Shown in pieces: positions 50,463 through 58,524 of a stretch of 64,000 nucleotides of DNA (the first letter of the stretch is position 1; each line of letters starts with the position of its first letter). Below the pieces are notes generated by a model, which did not search any database, was not told the DNA's origin, and worked only from the letters and a program-made list of their open reading frames with translations. The DNA comes from Bacteroidota bacterium (GTDB lineage: Bacteria; Bacteroidota; Bacteroidia; UKL13-3): positions 186,825 to 250,824 of the forward strand of contig JAZKBU010000005.1 of NCBI GenBank assembly GCA_040388375.1, in the 5' to 3' direction. Made by a program: the position numbers and the translations under genes.

Positions 50463-51836
50463 TTAATTAGTTGGACCGTTGTCTACTGTTGCTTCTATCG
50501 TAGCTTGAATATTTGTAGGTAAGTTACTTAAAATATTGTAGCCGGTTGCTGCTTCAATAGCATCTACTGAAGTTCTGTAAGTTCCCCATGAGCTGCTCAC
50601 TGTGTTTATATTAGGTGTGTTTACCGCAATTACACGTGTGCTGGTAGTTACACGGCTTACATCATTGGTGCCTTGTGTTAATACTACAATTACTTTCCAT
50701 ACATTGCTGGGAACAGTAATGTTTCCATTGTTAATGGTATTGAATGTGCCGTTTGAACCAGTACCACCAATTCCATAAGAACCCATAATAACATATACTT
50801 CATTGCCGGCATTAACCAATGTACGGGTATAGTTTTCTAGGTTAGCCCATGTTTGTTGGTTATTATTAGGTGCCTGAGGTATCATATTAGTCATTAAAAA
50901 AGTAGCTGAATTATTGGCAACAGTTGAAGTTCTGTCTGCTGACGGGCAGTTATGACCTCTGTCAAAACCACTACCTGAATAGCTTGTACTGCCTACTTGG
51001 TACCAACCGGCAGGTAAGGTAGCATCGGCTCTAAAATCATCCTGACGAGCGGCTGAACCTAACCAGTTTGGCCCTACATACCAGCTAACCCAATTAGCGG
51101 TAGCTCTGGAGCGGTTGTATGAAAGAATAAATTGTGTTTTTTGCATTAAATAGTTGTTTTCGTTGCTTATTACATTGGTTGCACCACTTGGGTTACCCAT
51201 AGCCATGTGGTCACCGTCAACACCTCCGCCAGTTCCTCCACCGCTATTGTCATTTATAACAAAATCATCAATATTGATACGGTTGGTACCACCTGAAATT
51301 TTTCTGATTTCGAAACGAACGTTACCTGTAACTGACATAGTAAAGGTGGCTGTTTGTAAAGTAGTGGCAGAAGTAGTAATGGTTGAACCTACTTTGCTGT
51401 ATGAGGTTCCGCTGTTTGTAGACATCCATAACTCCCAGGTACTGTTTGCATCTGTTCCGTATTTGGCATGTTGAATAGTTACACTTGATGCACCAGTAGT
51501 GGCATTAAACTGCATAGTTAATTTACCTGTATTTCTAATGCGTACTGATTTAGTTCCATTTTTAGGATCGCTGCTGGTGTTACCAATTAAGGCATCATCT
51601 AAATTCCAGCTACCAGAGCTAAGCGAAATAGCAGCAGCGGCATAGGCTGTTTTTGTTCCACTTTCAAAGTTTTCCGGAAAACCACTTGTAATGGCTAAAG
51701 TACTTGTACTGGATGGATTTTGTTTAGTGGTGTTTGGGGTATTGGCAAGTGTTGGACTGGTGTTTTCTTTTGAACATGCACTTAATACTAATAGTCCGAT
51801 AATAGTAATAGCGAGGTACTGTTTAATTTGTTTCAT
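50463..51836 (-). CDS. Secreted lipoprotein DNA/RNA non-specific endonuclease
   Basis: A 457-residue lipoprotein (LAITIIGLLVLSAC, lipidated C23) from the ATG at 51836; an ATG at 51857 gives an N-terminal extension of 7 residues. The N-terminal part (about 55-200) is a carbohydrate-binding-like sandwich with FEIRKISGGTNRINIDDFVI. The C-terminal part is a NUC1-type endonuclease: YNRSRATANWVSWYVGPNWLG, then FDRGHNCPSADRT with the catalytic H295, and NMIPQAPNNNQQTWANLE with the metal-binding Asn. It would degrade extracellular or periplasmic nucleic acid, for nutrition or defence. No T9SS tail is evident. It is preceded by a terminator-bounded gap from the amidoligase operon. Confidence 0.88.
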   Translation of the reverse strand: MKQIKQYLAITIIGLLVLSACSKENTSPTLANTPNTTKQNPSSTSTLAITSGFPENFESGTKTAYAAAAISLSSGSWNLDDALIGNTSSDPKNGTKSVRIRNTGKLTMQFNATTGASSVTIQHAKYGTDANSTWELWMSTNSGTSYSKVGSTITTSATTLQTATFTMSVTGNVRFEIRKISGGTNRINIDDFVINDNSGGGTGGGVDGDHMAMGNPSGATNVISNENNYLMQKTQFILSYNRSRATANWVSWYVGPNWLGSAARQDDFRADATLPAGWYQVGSTSYSGSGFDRGHNCPSADRTSTVANNSATFLMTNMIPQAPNNNQQTWANLENYTRTLVNAGNEVYVIMGSYGIGGTGSNGTFNTINNGNITVPSNVWKVIVVLTQGTNDVSRVTTSTRVIAVNTPNINTVSSSWGTYRTSVDAIEAATGYNILSNLPTNIQATIEATVDNGPTN

Positions 51837-51940
51837 GATTATATGGTTAAATATCATGCAAATTATCAGCCTTGAAGTTATTTAATTAACAAGCATTTAT
51901 TAAGAATCAATTATCAAATGGTAGCTCTACTATTAATTGT

Positions 51941-53131
51941 TTACTCTTCAAAAAAAGCAATGTTTCCACCCACCCAATCAAAGTCTTTATTGTAACGTAC
52001 ACCAATCATTTTACCTCTGCTCATACGTCCTAAGTTGGTAGCTAATGTTGGCCGTTCATCGCCATCGGGCCAAAGGTACATCATGCGTATTTCGCATTTA
52101 ACACCTCCTACAGGCGATTGAATGGCTGCTGCATAATTTACTTTTTCCTGTAAAATCCAATTCTCCGGGTCTTTTATGTTCTCCATGTCTGCTGGTTTTA
52201 CATCTATAATAACCCCCATTCCACTAAAGCTGAACAGGGGTTTTAAAACATAGTTTTCCAAATCTGTTGGAATGCTTTTTAGCTCATGTAGAAAATAGGT
52301 ATTGGGTACAAATTTGTTTCTTAAAAAAGGCATGGTGTATTTGCTGATTCTATAAAACCAATGTGGATGCGTAATCCATTCTACATCTAAATCATCTTGT
52401 AAATTAATGCTGTATGTAAAATCAGGATTGGCTGCTAAGTCATCAAAAATTAAACGGTTGTATATGCGTTTTACTGCTATTTCTTTTCCTTCTTTCTGGT
52501 AAAAAACTTTGTTGCCTTTTTGTATTAACTCGCTTAAGCAAACTATTGGTATGCCTAAGTTGGCTACAGTCGCATAAAAATCAATCCTCGTTTTTTGCTC
52601 ATGGGGTTTCAGGTCCATGAGTATAACCTGTTCAGGATTGCAATTGCCAATAATGGTTTTACGCAACAAGGCTAAATAAGAATGGTGGTTTAAGCCGCTG
52701 CTGTAATGCGAAAAGTTATCGGGACAGTAAAACCACTTTTTGTATTCAAGGCCAATAATATCTTCCCAGGCATACAAGCTGGGAAAGCCTTGCAGCTCTA
52801 TGAGTTTAGGTATAAAATTTCCTTGTTCATCTTGGCAAATACCAAAATCAATACAAATAAAATGAGGGTGTTTGCCTTCATTTTGCATGCGTAAATTTTT
52901 GGGTATGGCTTTTTCTGTTATTTCTTTAAAGTTGGGTTTAACTATTACATCTACTATTTGCTCGCAGGCTGAAACCAATTTTTGCTTTAAGTTTTTGTCA
53001 ACAAACATCGGTGTTTCGGCTATTCTAAACACTACATCCTGTTGGTATAAATTATTTAAATGCTGCACAAAACTTTCGTAATGTGCCTGCTTAAATGTTT
53101 CGTTATACTTTTTGCGAATAGCGGCTATCAT
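51941..53131 (-). CDS. Large ATP-grasp-like protein, last gene of the amidoligase operon
   Basis: A 396-residue cytoplasmic protein of a conserved uncharacterised type. Motifs suggestive of an ATP-grasp fold are KLIELQGFPSLYAWED, ENYVLKPLFSFSGMGVIIDV (a Lys followed by a glycine-rich loop, as in the ATP-grasp lid), WILQEKVNYAAAI and CEIRMMYLW with a terminal acidic stretch. It overlaps the preceding gene by 4 bp (ATGA), so it is translationally coupled to the glutamine amidotransferase. In context it is likely a second ligase that joins or amidates a carboxylate. The assignment to the ATP-grasp superfamily is from motif reading and should be checked by profile search. Confidence 0.75.
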   Translation of the reverse strand: MIAAIRKKYNETFKQAHYESFVQHLNNLYQQDVVFRIAETPMFVDKNLKQKLVSACEQIVDVIVKPNFKEITEKAIPKNLRMQNEGKHPHFICIDFGICQDEQGNFIPKLIELQGFPSLYAWEDIIGLEYKKWFYCPDNFSHYSSGLNHHSYLALLRKTIIGNCNPEQVILMDLKPHEQKTRIDFYATVANLGIPIVCLSELIQKGNKVFYQKEGKEIAVKRIYNRLIFDDLAANPDFTYSINLQDDLDVEWITHPHWFYRISKYTMPFLRNKFVPNTYFLHELKSIPTDLENYVLKPLFSFSGMGVIIDVKPADMENIKDPENWILQEKVNYAAAIQSPVGGVKCEIRMMYLWPDGDERPTLATNLGRMSRGKMIGVRYNKDFDWVGGNIAFFEE

Positions 53132-53952
53132 GCACTTACTTGTTTTTGTTGAACAGATAACAAAGCATTGTCTAAAAACTGTGGAATAATAAGGCTTTGG
53201 GTAAGCATAATTTTATCTTCATCATGCAGGGTTGCTATCATGGTATTGTATTTTTCTATACCATGGTTTTCTATGACCAATTGTTTTTTCTCTTCGCTTT
53301 GCCAATAATGTAACATGCCTTCAGCATCGGCTTCCGGATGAAATTGTGTGCCTACCATTTCCGGACTGAAACGAATAGCCATCAATGCTCTTTCTAACGA
53401 TACATGTGGGCGCAGTTTTTCTAAGGCTAAAATCTGTGCACCCATTTTTTCTATTTTGCTATCATTAGGTGCTATAACCTGCCATTTACGTGAATCAACT
53501 ATGTAAAAAGGGCGTGGCAGGTTTTTAAAAATTAAGTCGCCTAAACCTTCATCGGTTGAGAAAACAGGGTAAGTGCCAAACGATTCGCTTTTACGTAAAC
53601 ATACATCGCCTAAATTAAAATGATGGCACATCACCTGAAACGAATGGCAAATGAAAAAGATGTGTTTTTTATCGGTTGCTGTTTTATTGTGCTTCATTAC
53701 ATCTTTTACAAACTTTATATAGTTCTTTTCCCAGCCTTCATTATCTACAGGGCTTCCGGGGCCACCACTGGAAATATAAATATCATAATCTAAAGTAGGT
53801 TTCTCTTGTTTACCTCTTATATCAAATACTGTTTTTTGTATGGCTACGCGATGATTGGCAGCATAGTTATCCAGTATCTGGTGTATGTTTCTCATGCCTT
53901 GGTTTTCTGTACCGTTGTACATATCAAGGATGGCTATTTTAATATTTTGCAT
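53128..53952 (-). CDS. Class I glutamine amidotransferase
   Basis: A 274-residue GATase I domain protein that releases ammonia from glutamine for a partner enzyme. Oxyanion loop ISSGGPGSP (60-68), nucleophile C102 in FFICHSFQVM, and H205 and E207 in GTQFHPEAD form the complete triad. No synthetase domain is fused; it overlaps the large ATP-grasp-like gene by 4 bp, which may be its ammonia acceptor, and begins 11 bp after the GCS2-type ligase gene. Similar to GMP-synthase-like amidotransferases; the exact family is not known to me. The tail of ~35 residues after position 240 has no counterpart in the fold. Confidence 0.9.
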   Translation of the reverse strand: MQNIKIAILDMYNGTENQGMRNIHQILDNYAANHRVAIQKTVFDIRGKQEKPTLDYDIYISSGGPGSPVDNEGWEKNYIKFVKDVMKHNKTATDKKHIFFICHSFQVMCHHFNLGDVCLRKSESFGTYPVFSTDEGLGDLIFKNLPRPFYIVDSRKWQVIAPNDSKIEKMGAQILALEKLRPHVSLERALMAIRFSPEMVGTQFHPEADAEGMLHYWQSEEKKQLVIENHGIEKYNTMIATLHDEDKIMLTQSLIIPQFLDNALLSVQQKQVSA

Positions 53953-53963
53953 ATGTTTATTTT

Positions 53964-55076
53964 TTATACGTTTGTTCCTATTAATGTTTGTGTGCTTATA
54001 AAATCAACCACATCTTTTAAATTATTGGTTTGTTGGAATACTGCCAACTGCCTGTCGGCACCGGTGCCTCGCTCTAACATTTTTTGTACATAATCTATTT
54101 CATTCCTACTGCCTAGTTCATCTACCACATCGTCAATAAAATCCAACAGTTCATATATTAACGATTTGGTATCTACTTCACATTCCTTTCCAAAATCTAC
54201 CATTTTTCCATCAATGCCATAACGCGATGCACGCCATTTGTTTTCGTTTAACAAGGCTCTTTTGTAAATAATAAAGTTTAAGTTTTGACTGCGCAGTTTG
54301 TATAGCTTGGCACATAAAGCCTGAAATATGGCGGTTATGGCTAAGGTTTCATCTAACAGCATGGGTATATCACAAACCCTGAACTCTACTGTATCAAAAA
54401 ACGGATGCACACGTAAGTCCCACCATATTTTTTTAGCATTGTCAATACAATTGGTTTTAACCAAAAGCCTCACATAATTATCGTACTCTTCAATGGTTTC
54501 AAAAAAATCAGGAATACCGGTACGTGGAAACTTATCAAATACTTTGGTGCGAAATGATTTAAAACCCGTATTGCGTCCTTCCCAAAAAGGGGAGTTGGTA
54601 GAAAGGGCATATACATGCGGTAAAAAATAACGTACCGAGTTGGCTATATGAATGGCCATTTCGCGGCTTTCCATACCCACGTGTACATGTAAACCAAAAA
54701 TTAAATTAGAGCGGGCAGCATCTTGTAATTCATTTACTATTTCGTTGTATCGAGGGTGTTCGGTAATGAGTTGTTGCTCCCATTTACTAAACGGATGGGT
54801 ACCACTTGCACCAATACGTAAACCTAAATCGCCTGCCACGTTATGAATGGTTTTACGTAAATTGGCTAAATCAATACGGGCTTCGCTCATGTTACGGCAA
54901 ATACCTGTTCCAACCTCTACCACGGCTTGATGCATTTCTGCTTTTACCTGGTCGTCAGTTAATATTTTAGCTGCAGCTTCTACTATTTTCTGGTCATGCG
55001 ATTTGAGCTCCCGGGTAACGGGGTCAATAACCATGTATTCTTCTTCAATGCCTACTGTAAATTTACTTAAATTCAT
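53964..55076 (-). CDS. GCS2-family carboxylate-amine ligase
   Basis: A 370-residue enzyme of the glutamate-cysteine ligase type 2 / YbdK family (COG2170), which makes a gamma- or amide-linked dipeptide from a carboxylate and an amine using ATP. The N-terminus FTVGIEEEYMVIDP carries the metal-binding glutamates, followed by VVEVGTGICRNMSEAR, ASGTHPFSKWEQQ, and FGLHVHVGME with conserved histidines. WWDLRVHPFFDTVEFRVCD is also typical. Length matches the family. The substrate pair is unknown; glutamate-cysteine ligation is possible but the company of ATP-grasp and amidotransferase genes argues for a different product. Confidence 0.9.
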   Translation of the reverse strand: MNLSKFTVGIEEEYMVIDPVTRELKSHDQKIVEAAAKILTDDQVKAEMHQAVVEVGTGICRNMSEARIDLANLRKTIHNVAGDLGLRIGASGTHPFSKWEQQLITEHPRYNEIVNELQDAARSNLIFGLHVHVGMESREMAIHIANSVRYFLPHVYALSTNSPFWEGRNTGFKSFRTKVFDKFPRTGIPDFFETIEEYDNYVRLLVKTNCIDNAKKIWWDLRVHPFFDTVEFRVCDIPMLLDETLAITAIFQALCAKLYKLRSQNLNFIIYKRALLNENKWRASRYGIDGKMVDFGKECEVDTKSLIYELLDFIDDVVDELGSRNEIDYVQKMLERGTGADRQLAVFQQTNNLKDVVDFISTQTLIGTNV

Positions 55077-55094
55077 CGTTCATCCACTTATAGT

Positions 55095-56099
55095 TTATAC
55101 TTGTTTGGCTGACTTAGCTACTTTTTTAGCTGTGGTTTTTTTAGCAGGTGTTTTGCTTTTGCCTACAGCCTGGCTAATAAAATTACCCCACGATAAATTA
55201 TCCTGATTGGTATTTTGTGCTTTGGCTCTTTCTATCGCATAATCGGCCATAGTGTTTACTACCCAATCAAAATTTTCCTGCCCCACACTTTCAACCGATG
55301 AGTCAGGAGCAGGGTTACAAAAATCAATAGCATAAGGAATTCCATCACGCACAGCAAACTCAACGGTGTTAAAGTCGTAACCTAAACCTTGGTTTAAACG
55401 CAGCGTATAATCTGTAATGGTTTCTAATGTTTTAGGATCAGCCGTTTCCCATTCCGCCTGATAACGCAAGTGGTGTGGATTGCGTGGTTCGTACTTCATT
55501 ATTTTTACATGCTTACCGCCTACGCAGTAACAACGGTAGTATTCAGTAAATATAATTTCTTCTTGCAGCAACATAACCAACTGACCTGTTTCCTGATGCT
55601 TTTCAAAAAACTCGTTGGCATCATGTACTTTATAAACACTTTTCCAGCCGCCACCATCGTGGGGTTTCATGTATGCCGGAAAACCAATATGTGCAAACAT
55701 GGCTTCCCAATCCAATGGCATAATCATATTGCGAAACGAATTTTCGTTGGTATCATCTGGCCTTTCATTGGAAGGCAATAAAAAAGTTTTAGGAACCGGA
55801 ACACCTAATTTTACAGCTAAGCAATTGTTAAAAAACTTTTCATCGGCACTCCACCAAAATGGGTTATTGATAATGGCTGTGCCCATTAAAGCCGCATTTT
55901 TTAAGTAAGCCCTGTAAAAAGGTACATCCTGACTAATACGATCAACAATAACTGCATAACCGCTATCCGAAGCTTGTTCCAGTTTATCGAGTTTTACAAA
56001 CTCAGCTACCATGTCTTTTTCACCACGGCTATTAATGGCATCAATAAATGCTTGCGGAAACGAATTTTCCTGTCCGAATAAAATACCAATTTTTTTCAT
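55095..56099 (-). CDS. ATP-grasp ligase with Lys/Ala-rich tail
   Basis: A 334-residue ATP-grasp enzyme related to D-Ala-D-Ala ligases and RimK. Motifs include the ATP-lid GFPAYMKPHDGGGWKSVYKV (about 155-175), LQEEIIFTEYYRCYCVGGK, and the Mg-binding YDFNTVEFAVRDGIPYAIDFCNPAPD at the C-terminal end of the core. After about residue 310 there is a basic tail (SKTPAKKTTAKKVAKSAKQV) like those of histone-H1-type proteins, which may bind nucleic acid or acidic surfaces; the tail is dispensable to the fold. It starts 36 bp after the esterase and 18 bp before the GCS2 gene, so it is the second gene of the operon. Confidence 0.88.
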   Translation of the reverse strand: MKKIGILFGQENSFPQAFIDAINSRGEKDMVAEFVKLDKLEQASDSGYAVIVDRISQDVPFYRAYLKNAALMGTAIINNPFWWSADEKFFNNCLAVKLGVPVPKTFLLPSNERPDDTNENSFRNMIMPLDWEAMFAHIGFPAYMKPHDGGGWKSVYKVHDANEFFEKHQETGQLVMLLQEEIIFTEYYRCYCVGGKHVKIMKYEPRNPHHLRYQAEWETADPKTLETITDYTLRLNQGLGYDFNTVEFAVRDGIPYAIDFCNPAPDSSVESVGQENFDWVVNTMADYAIERAKAQNTNQDNLSWGNFISQAVGKSKTPAKKTTAKKVAKSAKQV

Positions 56100-56135
56100 G
56101 GCTTTTAGTGTTTATCGTTAGTAATGTTTTATGAA

Positions 56136-56840
56136 TTAAATTAAGGAGAGATAATGCGGAAACATATCGCGCCAAACAGGCCAGTCGTGCCCGCCAAAGG
56201 GTCTTACATCAAGCCAATGGTCAATACCTTTGCTGTGTAATAGCTGGCTCATTTCTTCGTTGGCTGTTTTACACATATCGCCTTCGGCTGTACCTAAAAA
56301 TATTTTCATGTTCCATAAATCCGGATGGTTATTAGCAGGTATAAAATCAGGTGGATTATTGAAGTAAATATTGTCATCGTAATAGCCAAACACTTGGTCT
56401 TTTATATCAAATTTAGCACCCATGCTAATCATGGCATGCACGTTTTCCGGATGTTTAAAAGCGTAATTGGCAGCATGGTAACCACCAAAGCTGCAACCTG
56501 CTGTTATTACCCTGTCAAAACCTGTTTCTGCTTTGGCACGTGGCACCAGTTCATGGTGTAACATGTTATCGTAACAAGTGTGGTTATAAGCTCTTGTGTA
56601 TGCGTCAACATGTTTGTTATACCAGCTTAATTCGTCAATACCATCAATACAATATATTTTTACTAAACCATTGTCAATAAAGCTGGCTGCCGATTCAATT
56701 AATTTAAAATCTTTGTTTTGATAATACCTGCCCATAGAAGTAGGGAAAGCAATGACGGGCATTCCTTTTTCCCCAAATACTTGCATTTCTATTTCTTTGT
56801 CTAAGTTGGGGGAGTGCCACTTAAAATAATTTTCTATCAT
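56136..56840 (-). CDS. Alpha/beta-hydrolase esterase, first gene of the amidoligase operon
   Basis: A 234-residue cytoplasmic alpha/beta-hydrolase. The nucleophile is S117 in AGCSFGGYHA and the catalytic His is H218 in FGGHDWPVWRD; an acidic member is probably D193 or nearby. The start PVIAFPTSMGRYY and YCIDGIDELSWYN match the esterase-D-like family in Bacteroidota. It is the promoter-proximal gene of the leftward operon and lies divergent from another esterase (57013) across 172 bp. It may hydrolyse an ester or amide in the product of the cluster. Confidence 0.85.
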   Translation of the reverse strand: MIENYFKWHSPNLDKEIEMQVFGEKGMPVIAFPTSMGRYYQNKDFKLIESAASFIDNGLVKIYCIDGIDELSWYNKHVDAYTRAYNHTCYDNMLHHELVPRAKAETGFDRVITAGCSFGGYHAANYAFKHPENVHAMISMGAKFDIKDQVFGYYDDNIYFNNPPDFIPANNHPDLWNMKIFLGTAEGDMCKTANEEMSQLLHSKGIDHWLDVRPFGGHDWPVWRDMFPHYLSLI

Positions 56841-57012
56841 AGGCTTAGGTTGGGGTAATAAGTATTTACATCGTTGGGTAGCTTATGCTGTGATTTTGAA
56901 TGGTATAACGTACACACAAATACGTTTTTTTTATATACAAAAGCAATGAATTATTTAATTTTTAATTTTGTTGATGTTTGATTTAAAAGCGCTTAACATT
57001 GTAACCTTTTAA

Positions 57013-57801
57013 ATGAAAGCCCTCCGTCAGTTATTACTTTTTAAGTCAAATGCATTAAACCGTTCTGTTCATGCTGATTTAATTTTACCTGCACAAATTG
57101 ACCCGGCACAAGCTTATTCTTTATTGGTTTTAAATGATGGACAGGATATGCAGGCGTTGCATATACAACATATTTTAGAGCAGCTATGGAGTAAAGGTAT
57201 ATGCAAGCCTTTTATATTAATTGCACCGCATACGCAAGATAGAATGGTTGAGTATGGTGTAACCGGTTATGTAGATTTTAAACAACGTGGTTCTTTGGCT
57301 AAGCAGTACACCCAATTTATTGTGGAAGAGTTAATACCTCAATTGCCTGAACGCTTACAGTTAAATGTGTTTAAAGAGCATGTAATAGGTGGTTTTAGTT
57401 TGGGTGCATTGTCGGCATTTGATATAGCCTGGAACAACCCGCAGGTGTTTAGCAAAGTAAGTGCATGCAGTGCTTCGTTTTGGTGGCGTAGTAAAGATTT
57501 AGATGAGGGTTATACCGATGCAGATAGAATAATGCACAAGGTTGTAAAAGAAACCAAGCATAAACCGGCATTACAAATATGGATTCAATGCGGTACTTTA
57601 GATGAAACGGCTGATAGAAACAACAACGGTATTATAGATAGTATTGACGATGCTTTGGATTTAATAAAAGAACTGGAGCTAAAAGGATTTACCCAACATA
57701 TAGATTTGTTTTACCACGAAATAATAGGAGCTAAGCATACTCTGGAAACCTATGGTTTAATGTTACCCCAGTTTTTGCGTTGGGCATTTCCAAACAACTA
57801 A
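57013..57801 (+). CDS. Esterase-like alpha/beta-hydrolase with an EF-hand-like loop
   Basis: A 262-residue putative esterase without signal peptide. Nucleophile S129 (GGFSLGALSAFD); acid likely D197 in QCGTLDETAD; His likely H242 in GAKHTLETYG. Between the acid and the His lies DRNNNGIIDSIDDALD (201-216), with D201, N203, N205, D209 and D212 at EF-hand positions 1, 3, 5, 9 and 12, so it could bind calcium. It diverges from the amidoligase operon and belongs to the same neighbourhood of two esterases, suggesting a shared substrate. Confidence 0.85.
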   Translation: MKALRQLLLFKSNALNRSVHADLILPAQIDPAQAYSLLVLNDGQDMQALHIQHILEQLWSKGICKPFILIAPHTQDRMVEYGVTGYVDFKQRGSLAKQYTQFIVEELIPQLPERLQLNVFKEHVIGGFSLGALSAFDIAWNNPQVFSKVSACSASFWWRSKDLDEGYTDADRIMHKVVKETKHKPALQIWIQCGTLDETADRNNNGIIDSIDDALDLIKELELKGFTQHIDLFYHEIIGAKHTLETYGLMLPQFLRWAFPNN

Positions 57802-58140: not shown

Positions 58141-58185
58141 TTATTTCTCAACATAAATTTTGCTACGGAAATCTTATATTTGGTT

Positions 58186-58524
58186 ATGAAAAAGTGGAGG
58201 TTAGACCCTTTAGAAGTTGTCAGAAATTATTCAAACTATGAAATTGTTGAATCGGATACAATTATTCTTTTAACATTTCTCGAAAAAGCATACTATCAAC
58301 AGAACAAAAGAACATTACGAAAGGTTAAGAATATTTCTTTTGATGATACACTAATGCAAATAACTATACATTCTTTGACACCAATAGAAGGAGAACCAGA
58401 AAACATGTCTTATAATATGAGAGTTGCTTTTTCATATAAGGAAGAGTATTGCTTTTGGGTATATTTTGATGACGAACGAATTCGTGTTTTTACTATGCAT
58501 AAACTTCTAGGTTTAGACAGTTAA
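58186..58524 (+). CDS. Small hypothetical protein
   Basis: A 112-residue ORF from ATG 58186 (an upstream TTG at 58180 adds two residues). Patterns IVESDTIILLTFLEKAYY and EEYCFWVYFDDERIRVF suggest an alternating beta structure. No family is recognised. It converges with the helicase gene, with 93 bp between them. It may be paired with the 57874 ORF. Confidence 0.5.
   Translation: MKKWRLDPLEVVRNYSNYEIVESDTIILLTFLEKAYYQQNKRTLRKVKNISFDDTLMQITIHSLTPIEGEPENMSYNMRVAFSYKEEYCFWVYFDDERIRVFTMHKLLGLDS

Follow-up and report, generated by a model that had tools for sequence, protein, structure and literature searches.

A co-inherited six-gene cluster of predicted amide-bond ligases, a putative thiol peptidase, and two esterases in Bacteroidota

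The window analyzed here is a 64,000-nucleotide stretch of DNA from a Bacteroidota bacterium (lineage UKL13-3; assembly GCA_040388375.1, contig JAZKBU010000005.1, positions 186,825 to 250,824), and its subject is a cluster of six genes, referred to as EstA, ATPg1, GCS2, GAT, ATPg2, and EstB (Table 1). Five open reading frames (ORFs) on the minus strand, separated by gaps of 36, 18, 11, and -4 bp, form a leftward unit, from which an esterase gene diverges on the plus strand. An earlier note on this DNA had described the same layout, and all six ORFs, their coordinates, and the gaps between them were recovered.

Table 1. Genes of the cluster, given as product, coordinates in the window, strand, and supporting evidence
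EstA, alpha/beta hydrolase, first gene of the leftward unit	56136..56840	-	PF00561 2.9e-8, PF00756 2.8e-7
ATPg1, RimK-like ATP-grasp ligase with Lys-rich C-terminal tail	55095..56099	-	TIGR00768 2.3e-7, below cut-off
GCS2, glutamate-cysteine-ligase-type carboxylate-amine ligase (PRK13515)	53964..55076	-	PF04107 2.8e-62
GAT, class I amidotransferase-fold protein, read as thiol peptidase/amide hydrolase	53128..53952	-	PF00117 9e-10
ATPg2, glutathione synthetase/glutathionylspermidine synthetase-fold ATP-grasp ligase	51941..53131	-	predicted structure, fold search
EstB, divergent esterase	57013..57801	+	PF00756 2.3e-28

Using ATPg2 as the query, 77 loci were fetched (L078 included), mostly from Mucilaginibacter and Pedobacter, and also from Arcicella, Pontibacter, and other Bacteroidetes. 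The six-gene order recurs in 53 of them on the same strands, with EstB divergent, more than chance would give; the full six genes were not seen in the other 24, part of which are cut by contig ends. A wider view was obtained from 395 genomes drawn across the phylum Bacteroidota, in which presence was called at an E value of 0.001 for ATPg2 and of 1e-30 for ATPg1, GCS2, and GAT. By these thresholds, ATPg2 occurs in 114 genomes, ATPg1 in 134, GCS2 in 129, and GAT in 86, and the three ligases (ATPg1, GCS2, and ATPg2) co-occur in 105. The three genes lie within 15 kb in 60 of the 105, only ATPg1 and GCS2 are close in 15, none are close in 26, and 4 show other arrangements, counts in which contig breaks may hide linkage. 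ATPg2 stands alone in 7 Mucilaginibacter loci, and in all seven cases ATPg1, GCS2, and GAT reside elsewhere in the genome. The earlier note had made its view of a single system of amide-bond ligases depend on the gene order being kept in other genomes; the order is kept, and both samples support the view of one co-inherited system of amide-bond ligases. Two further statistics were not used as evidence, namely the correlated distances among the six proteins (r 0.76 to 0.95), which had no control, and a P value for three-ligase co-occurrence, which ignores relatedness. A plasmid-borne location was set aside, as no match to ATPg2 was found in the plasmid collection.

Several individual loci show peculiarities of their own. 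A 42-residue ATPg2 match at the end of a contig labelled Hyphomicrobiales (L078:8001-8957) was taken as probably reflecting a chimeric assembly. In family f6 (L131 = G158; also G037 and G064), ATPg1, GAT, and ATPg2 stand together in a genome without GCS2 at E 1e-30. An aromatic amino acid lyase gene adjoins ATPg1 in five genomes of family f26 (L180:3726-5231, with PF00221 in the tested L180; also L181, L182, L185, and L186), and in L180 a serine carboxypeptidase-like gene adjoins GCS2.

Judged from its sequence, GCS2 is clearly a member of the PRK13515 carboxylate-amine ligase family (532.5 bits against a cut-off of 371), and gamma-glutamyl ligase activity is predicted for it; PRK13515 gave 0 matches over the cut-off and 5 below it in 14 control genomes. 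Residues G9, E11, and E13 of its GhExE motif, which the available part of one source presents as a metal/ATP motif of carboxylate-amine ligases (PMC2588565), are found in 61/61 aligned proteins, and the source genome holds one GCS2. ATPg1 is RimK-like (30.5 bits for TIGR00768 against a cut-off of 143.4), with ATP-grasp residues K145, E180, E247, D259, and N262 in 59/59 aligned proteins. Its Lys/Ala/Pro-rich tail (55095-55200) is reminiscent of histone H1-like tails and very variable in length: in 52 of 59 near relatives it spans 25 or more residues and contains 18% K+R or more, and in Arcicella and other lineages where the genes are retained it is reduced or lacking. Among distant ATPg1 proteins, the tail anchor was located in only 9 of 46, the rest being judged from reading the sequence ends. 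This variability weakens the idea, raised in the earlier note, that the basic tail could tie the ligase to nucleic acid or to an acidic polymer. Searched against the Protein Data Bank (PDB), profiles A2 and A4 (GAT, ATPg1) gave weak matches only (MetA 0.0034, D-Ala ligase 0.0042).

The third ligase, ATPg2, matched no Pfam family at E 0.1; one of 28 relatives matched CP_ATPgrasp_2 (0.0011), and comparison of the ATPg2 profile with the PDB returned nothing significant, YgiC alone appearing at 0.83. On the strength of its AlphaFold2 model, built from 28 sequences (predicted local distance difference test, pLDDT, 89.4; predicted template modelling score, pTM, 0.90), ATPg2 is predicted to be an ATP-grasp enzyme with the fold of glutathione synthetase (GSS) and glutathionylspermidine synthetase (GspS). 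The best match was YgiC (Foldseek 1.4e-12; VIA-align 2 Z 26.1 over 343 residues), and human GSS reached Z 23.6. The top 25 VIA-align 2 rows (Z 19.6-26.1) comprise YgiC, YjfC, GspS, human, yeast, and plant glutathione or homoglutathione synthetases, trypanothione synthetase, GSS-like effectors, and Cp1B, followed by a row at 12.6 and a remainder at or below 7.7. The ATP-grasp nature of this protein, the other point on which the earlier note had rested its single-system view, was thereby corroborated. The metal and ATP residues of GSS/GspS-fold ligases are D, E-x-N, and K; with the motifs mapped by eye, D95, E112, and K297 of ATPg2 are conserved in 76/76 aligned proteins, with Q114 at the position of the Asn.

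GAT possesses the amidotransferase triad that had been ascribed to it (C102, H205, and E207), which is also intact in 65/65 aligned proteins. The usual nucleophile motif of glutamine-hydrolyzing class I amidotransferases is GxCxGxQ, which 3l7n fits in the alignment with GAT (GVCLGAQ). GAT departs from this motif, having CHSFQ in the source protein, CH[SA]xQ in 65/65 aligned proteins, and CHS[FY]Q in 32 of 35 distant ones, with 3 outside the pattern; a second motif, DSRxxQ, was dropped because it fits only 17 of the 35 distant proteins. The GAT model (pLDDT 89.3) has near-equal fold matches in tm1158 (Z 22.9), MetA (22.1), DnfC (21.9), and Arabidopsis gamma-glutamyl peptidase 1 (21.6), and gamma-glutamyl hydrolases are also among its matches. 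Because the peptidase, amidotransferases, and MetA match about equally, the fold alone is indecisive.

The genomic slot of GAT is more informative. In the 60 linked triads, GAT is local in 38, elsewhere in the genome in 14, and nowhere in 8 (E 1e-30), and in 6 of these 8 GAT-less clusters a gene of the M29 peptidase kind occupies the slot between GCS2 and ATPg2. The M29 protein of L123 matches PF02073 (E 4.7e-15), and the other five match that of L123 at 457 to 512 bits. Within family f36, L191 (G302) has M29 and the other two loci read, L205 (G132) and L206 (G263), have GAT in this position; a full reading of 22 distant linked triads placed GAT in the slot in 10 and M29 in 6. Since a peptidase cannot take ammonia from glutamine, hydrolysis is the likelier function common to the occupants of the slot. 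The earlier note's view of the amidotransferase as a supplier of ammonia thus loses ground to the altered nucleophile motif, the presence of gamma-glutamyl peptidase 1 among the best folds, and the M29 gene in the slot in some genomes; GAT is more likely a hydrolase, with a predicted peptidase activity.

A second form of the system lacks ATPg2. GAT and ATPg1 occur without ATPg2 in 16 genomes, the two genes being close in 15 of them, and 11 such loci were read (L169-L179). A protein of about 461 residues recurs in 9 of the 11 (L169, L171-L174, and L176-L179) and adjoins ATPg1 in 8 of these 9, and the complete series EstA-ATPg1-[461]-GAT-EstB is found in three loci (L172, L173, and L178). The one such protein tested, that of L179, matches CP_ATPgrasp_2 and CP_ATPgrasp_1, and profile comparison of the 461-residue variant with ATPg2 gave no match. 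The 461-residue protein thus seems to fill the place of ATPg2, one circularly permuted type of ATP-grasp being exchanged for another.

The interpretation that we favor, with a probability of about 0.5, is that the cluster encodes one cytosolic pathway, independent of nonribosomal peptide synthetases (NRPSs), that would build a small peptide-like amide of gamma-glutamyl type, which a peptidase and the esterases would trim. The computations described above show co-inheritance, fold classes, conserved catalytic residues, and gene replacement; what each enzyme does, on which substrates, and in what sequence is inferred as follows. GCS2 would join the gamma-carboxyl group of glutamate, or of a similar acid, to an amine. 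ATPg1 and ATPg2 would convert carboxylates into activated acyl phosphates and attach an amine or additional amino acids, possibly in the manner of glutathione synthetase, which adds Gly to gamma-Glu-Cys, or of GspS/YgiC-type enzymes, which add spermidine. GAT may be a thiol peptidase that trims a residue, perhaps gamma-Glu, off the product or an intermediate, a job that an M29-family peptidase could take over, and EstA and EstB would cut an ester in the precursor or product.

Several observations weigh against this pathway. Glutamine amidotransferases and homoserine transsuccinylase score as well as the peptidase against the GAT model, and the slot is occupied by neither GAT nor M29 in 6 of the 22 distant linked triads. 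Of the 114 genomes with ATPg2, 5 have no GCS2 (E 1e-30) and 4 no ATPg1; in 2 Pedobacter genomes (L056 and L070), GCS2, GAT, and ATPg2 are present and ATPg1 is missing. Of the 16 genomes of the second form, which keep GAT and ATPg1, GCS2 is missing (E 1e-30) in 8, and since GAT is kept where GCS2 is missing, its substrate does not have to come from GCS2. Furthermore, in the mapping by eye, the Asn of the E-x-N metal motif is replaced by Gln114 in ATPg2.

Other explanations must be set beside the peptide-like amide pathway. GAT could be a true glutaminase that feeds ammonia to a ligase, most simply ATPg1, in which case the product would be a primary amide. Its intact Cys-His-Glu triad and PF00117 membership, the several glutamine amidotransferases among its best folds, and its presence with ATPg1 in 84 of 86 genomes, including those where GCS2 is missing, are consistent with such a role, whereas CH[SA]xQ in place of GxCxGxQ, the replacement of GAT by a peptidase-family gene in the same slot, and its absence (E 1e-30) from 50 of the 134 ATPg1 genomes make it unlikely. 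A catabolic or detoxifying route is more doubtful still; by analogy with the Puu putrescine pathway, a route of the gamma-glutamylation type, amines or amino acids would be gamma-glutamylated, processed, and released by the GAT-type hydrolase. It is well established that GS-fold ligases gamma-glutamylate compounds that class I GAT hydrolases then release, and the gamma-glutamyl hydrolases among the fold matches of GAT would suit it; however, the conserved six genes include no oxidoreductase or transporter, and two extra ATP-grasp ligases are hard to fit into a degradation.

We consider it quite improbable that the ligases instead tag a protein, or ATPg1 on its own Lys-rich tail, with added residues that the hydrolase removes. 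The resemblance of ATPg1 to RimK and the frequency of its tail among near relatives would be in keeping with tagging, as would the closest kinship of GCS2 with the Pup ligase reported in the available part of PMC2588565. Against it stand the variation of the tail among lineages that keep the genes, the fold relatives of ATPg2, which act on small peptides, and the lack of a small ORF that recurs across the wide gaps beyond sporadic inserts, none being alike in more than 4 loci of the relatives. Small ORFs, resembling by eye MNT/HEPN toxin-antitoxin components or GIY-YIG nucleases, are inserted between GAT and ATPg2 in some Mucilaginibacter (L004, L005, L010, and L021; L012 and L030). A cluster for a graspetide or another ribosomally synthesized and post-translationally modified peptide was rejected, since the small gaps within the operon leave no room for a precursor gene and no candidate precursor recurs in the wide gaps of relatives. 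Anti-phage defence was likewise set aside, as PADLOC models gave 0 families for 8 proteins at E 0.01.

No description of the operon or its product was found in the literature searched, which did not cover a 2009 amidoligase operon survey that may describe the gene set; the survey reportedly deals in general terms with peptidases that accompany ATP-grasp and GS-fold ligases. Glutathione and homoglutathione synthesis shares with the operon a glutamate-cysteine-ligase-type enzyme and a GSS-fold ligase. However, the operon adds a third ligase, a hydrolase, and two esterases, the likeness is structural, and ATPg2 is only about 13% identical and belongs to no Pfam family. A glutathione substitute serving as the only thiol was rejected: the source genome also has BshC, over its cut-off, and because BshC acts in bacillithiol synthesis the operon is unlikely to be its only thiol route. 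The peptidyl-polyamine ligases YgiC/YjfC and GspS match the fold of ATPg2 best, along almost all of its length, but they share 12-14% identity with it and keep different gene company. Arabidopsis gamma-glutamyl peptidase 1 ranks among the best fold matches of GAT (Foldseek 5.7e-12), at about 16% identity, and other stand-alone amidotransferase-fold enzymes reach Z 21.8-22.9. YgiC and YjfC are cited as peptidylpolyamine synthetases in the accessible part of a study of the NRPS-independent E-64 pathway, whose GSS-fold ligase, Cp1B, likewise works without an NRPS in a small cluster (9cjn against ATPg2, Z 22.2); unlike the operon, no GCS2, RimK-like ligase, or GAT is named in that part among the four genes of the pathway (PMC12568646). 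Another carboxylate-amine ligase family is described beside a GAT-like thiol peptidase in neighbourhoods read as small-peptide synthesis, but these involve a different ligase family in proteobacteria, and the available text mentions no ATP-grasps or esterases there (PMC2588565).

With regard to the remaining parts of the locus, both esterases retain an invariant GxSxG serine and a His, within G115, S117, G119, D188, and H218 of EstA (55/55 aligned proteins) and G127, S129, G131, and H242 of EstB (56/56). Against the PDB, the EstB profile matched 2qm0 (1.7e-5) and 3gff (2.8e-4), and the EstA profile had no match. A look for promoters in the gap between EstA and EstB turned up a lone plus-strand TAnnTTTG and nothing that matched both parts of the motif. 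Just downstream of the leftward unit, positions 50463-51857 encode a DNA/RNA non-specific endonuclease (PF01223, E 2.2e-50) with an apparent lipoprotein signal, for which tblastn found no match in 78 loci. On the other side, the 114-residue protein of 58180-58524 weakly matches AdfA, anti-DarT factor A, at 22.1 bits against a cut-off of 27 (E 1.1e-4).

More tentatively, the cluster may represent a pathway, widespread in Bacteroidota, to a novel peptidyl-polyamine or gamma-glutamyl-type peptide whose physiological role is a general one, in which three amide ligases act and two unrelated peptidase families, of the amidotransferase fold or M29, serve the hydrolase step. Roughly one in four of the Bacteroidota genomes sampled (105/395) carries the three-ligase set, and its retention even when the genes lie apart points to a generally useful metabolite. 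Reading the amidotransferase-like gene as a hydrolase changes which chemistry to look for, and the operon offers a defined enzyme set for finding the product.

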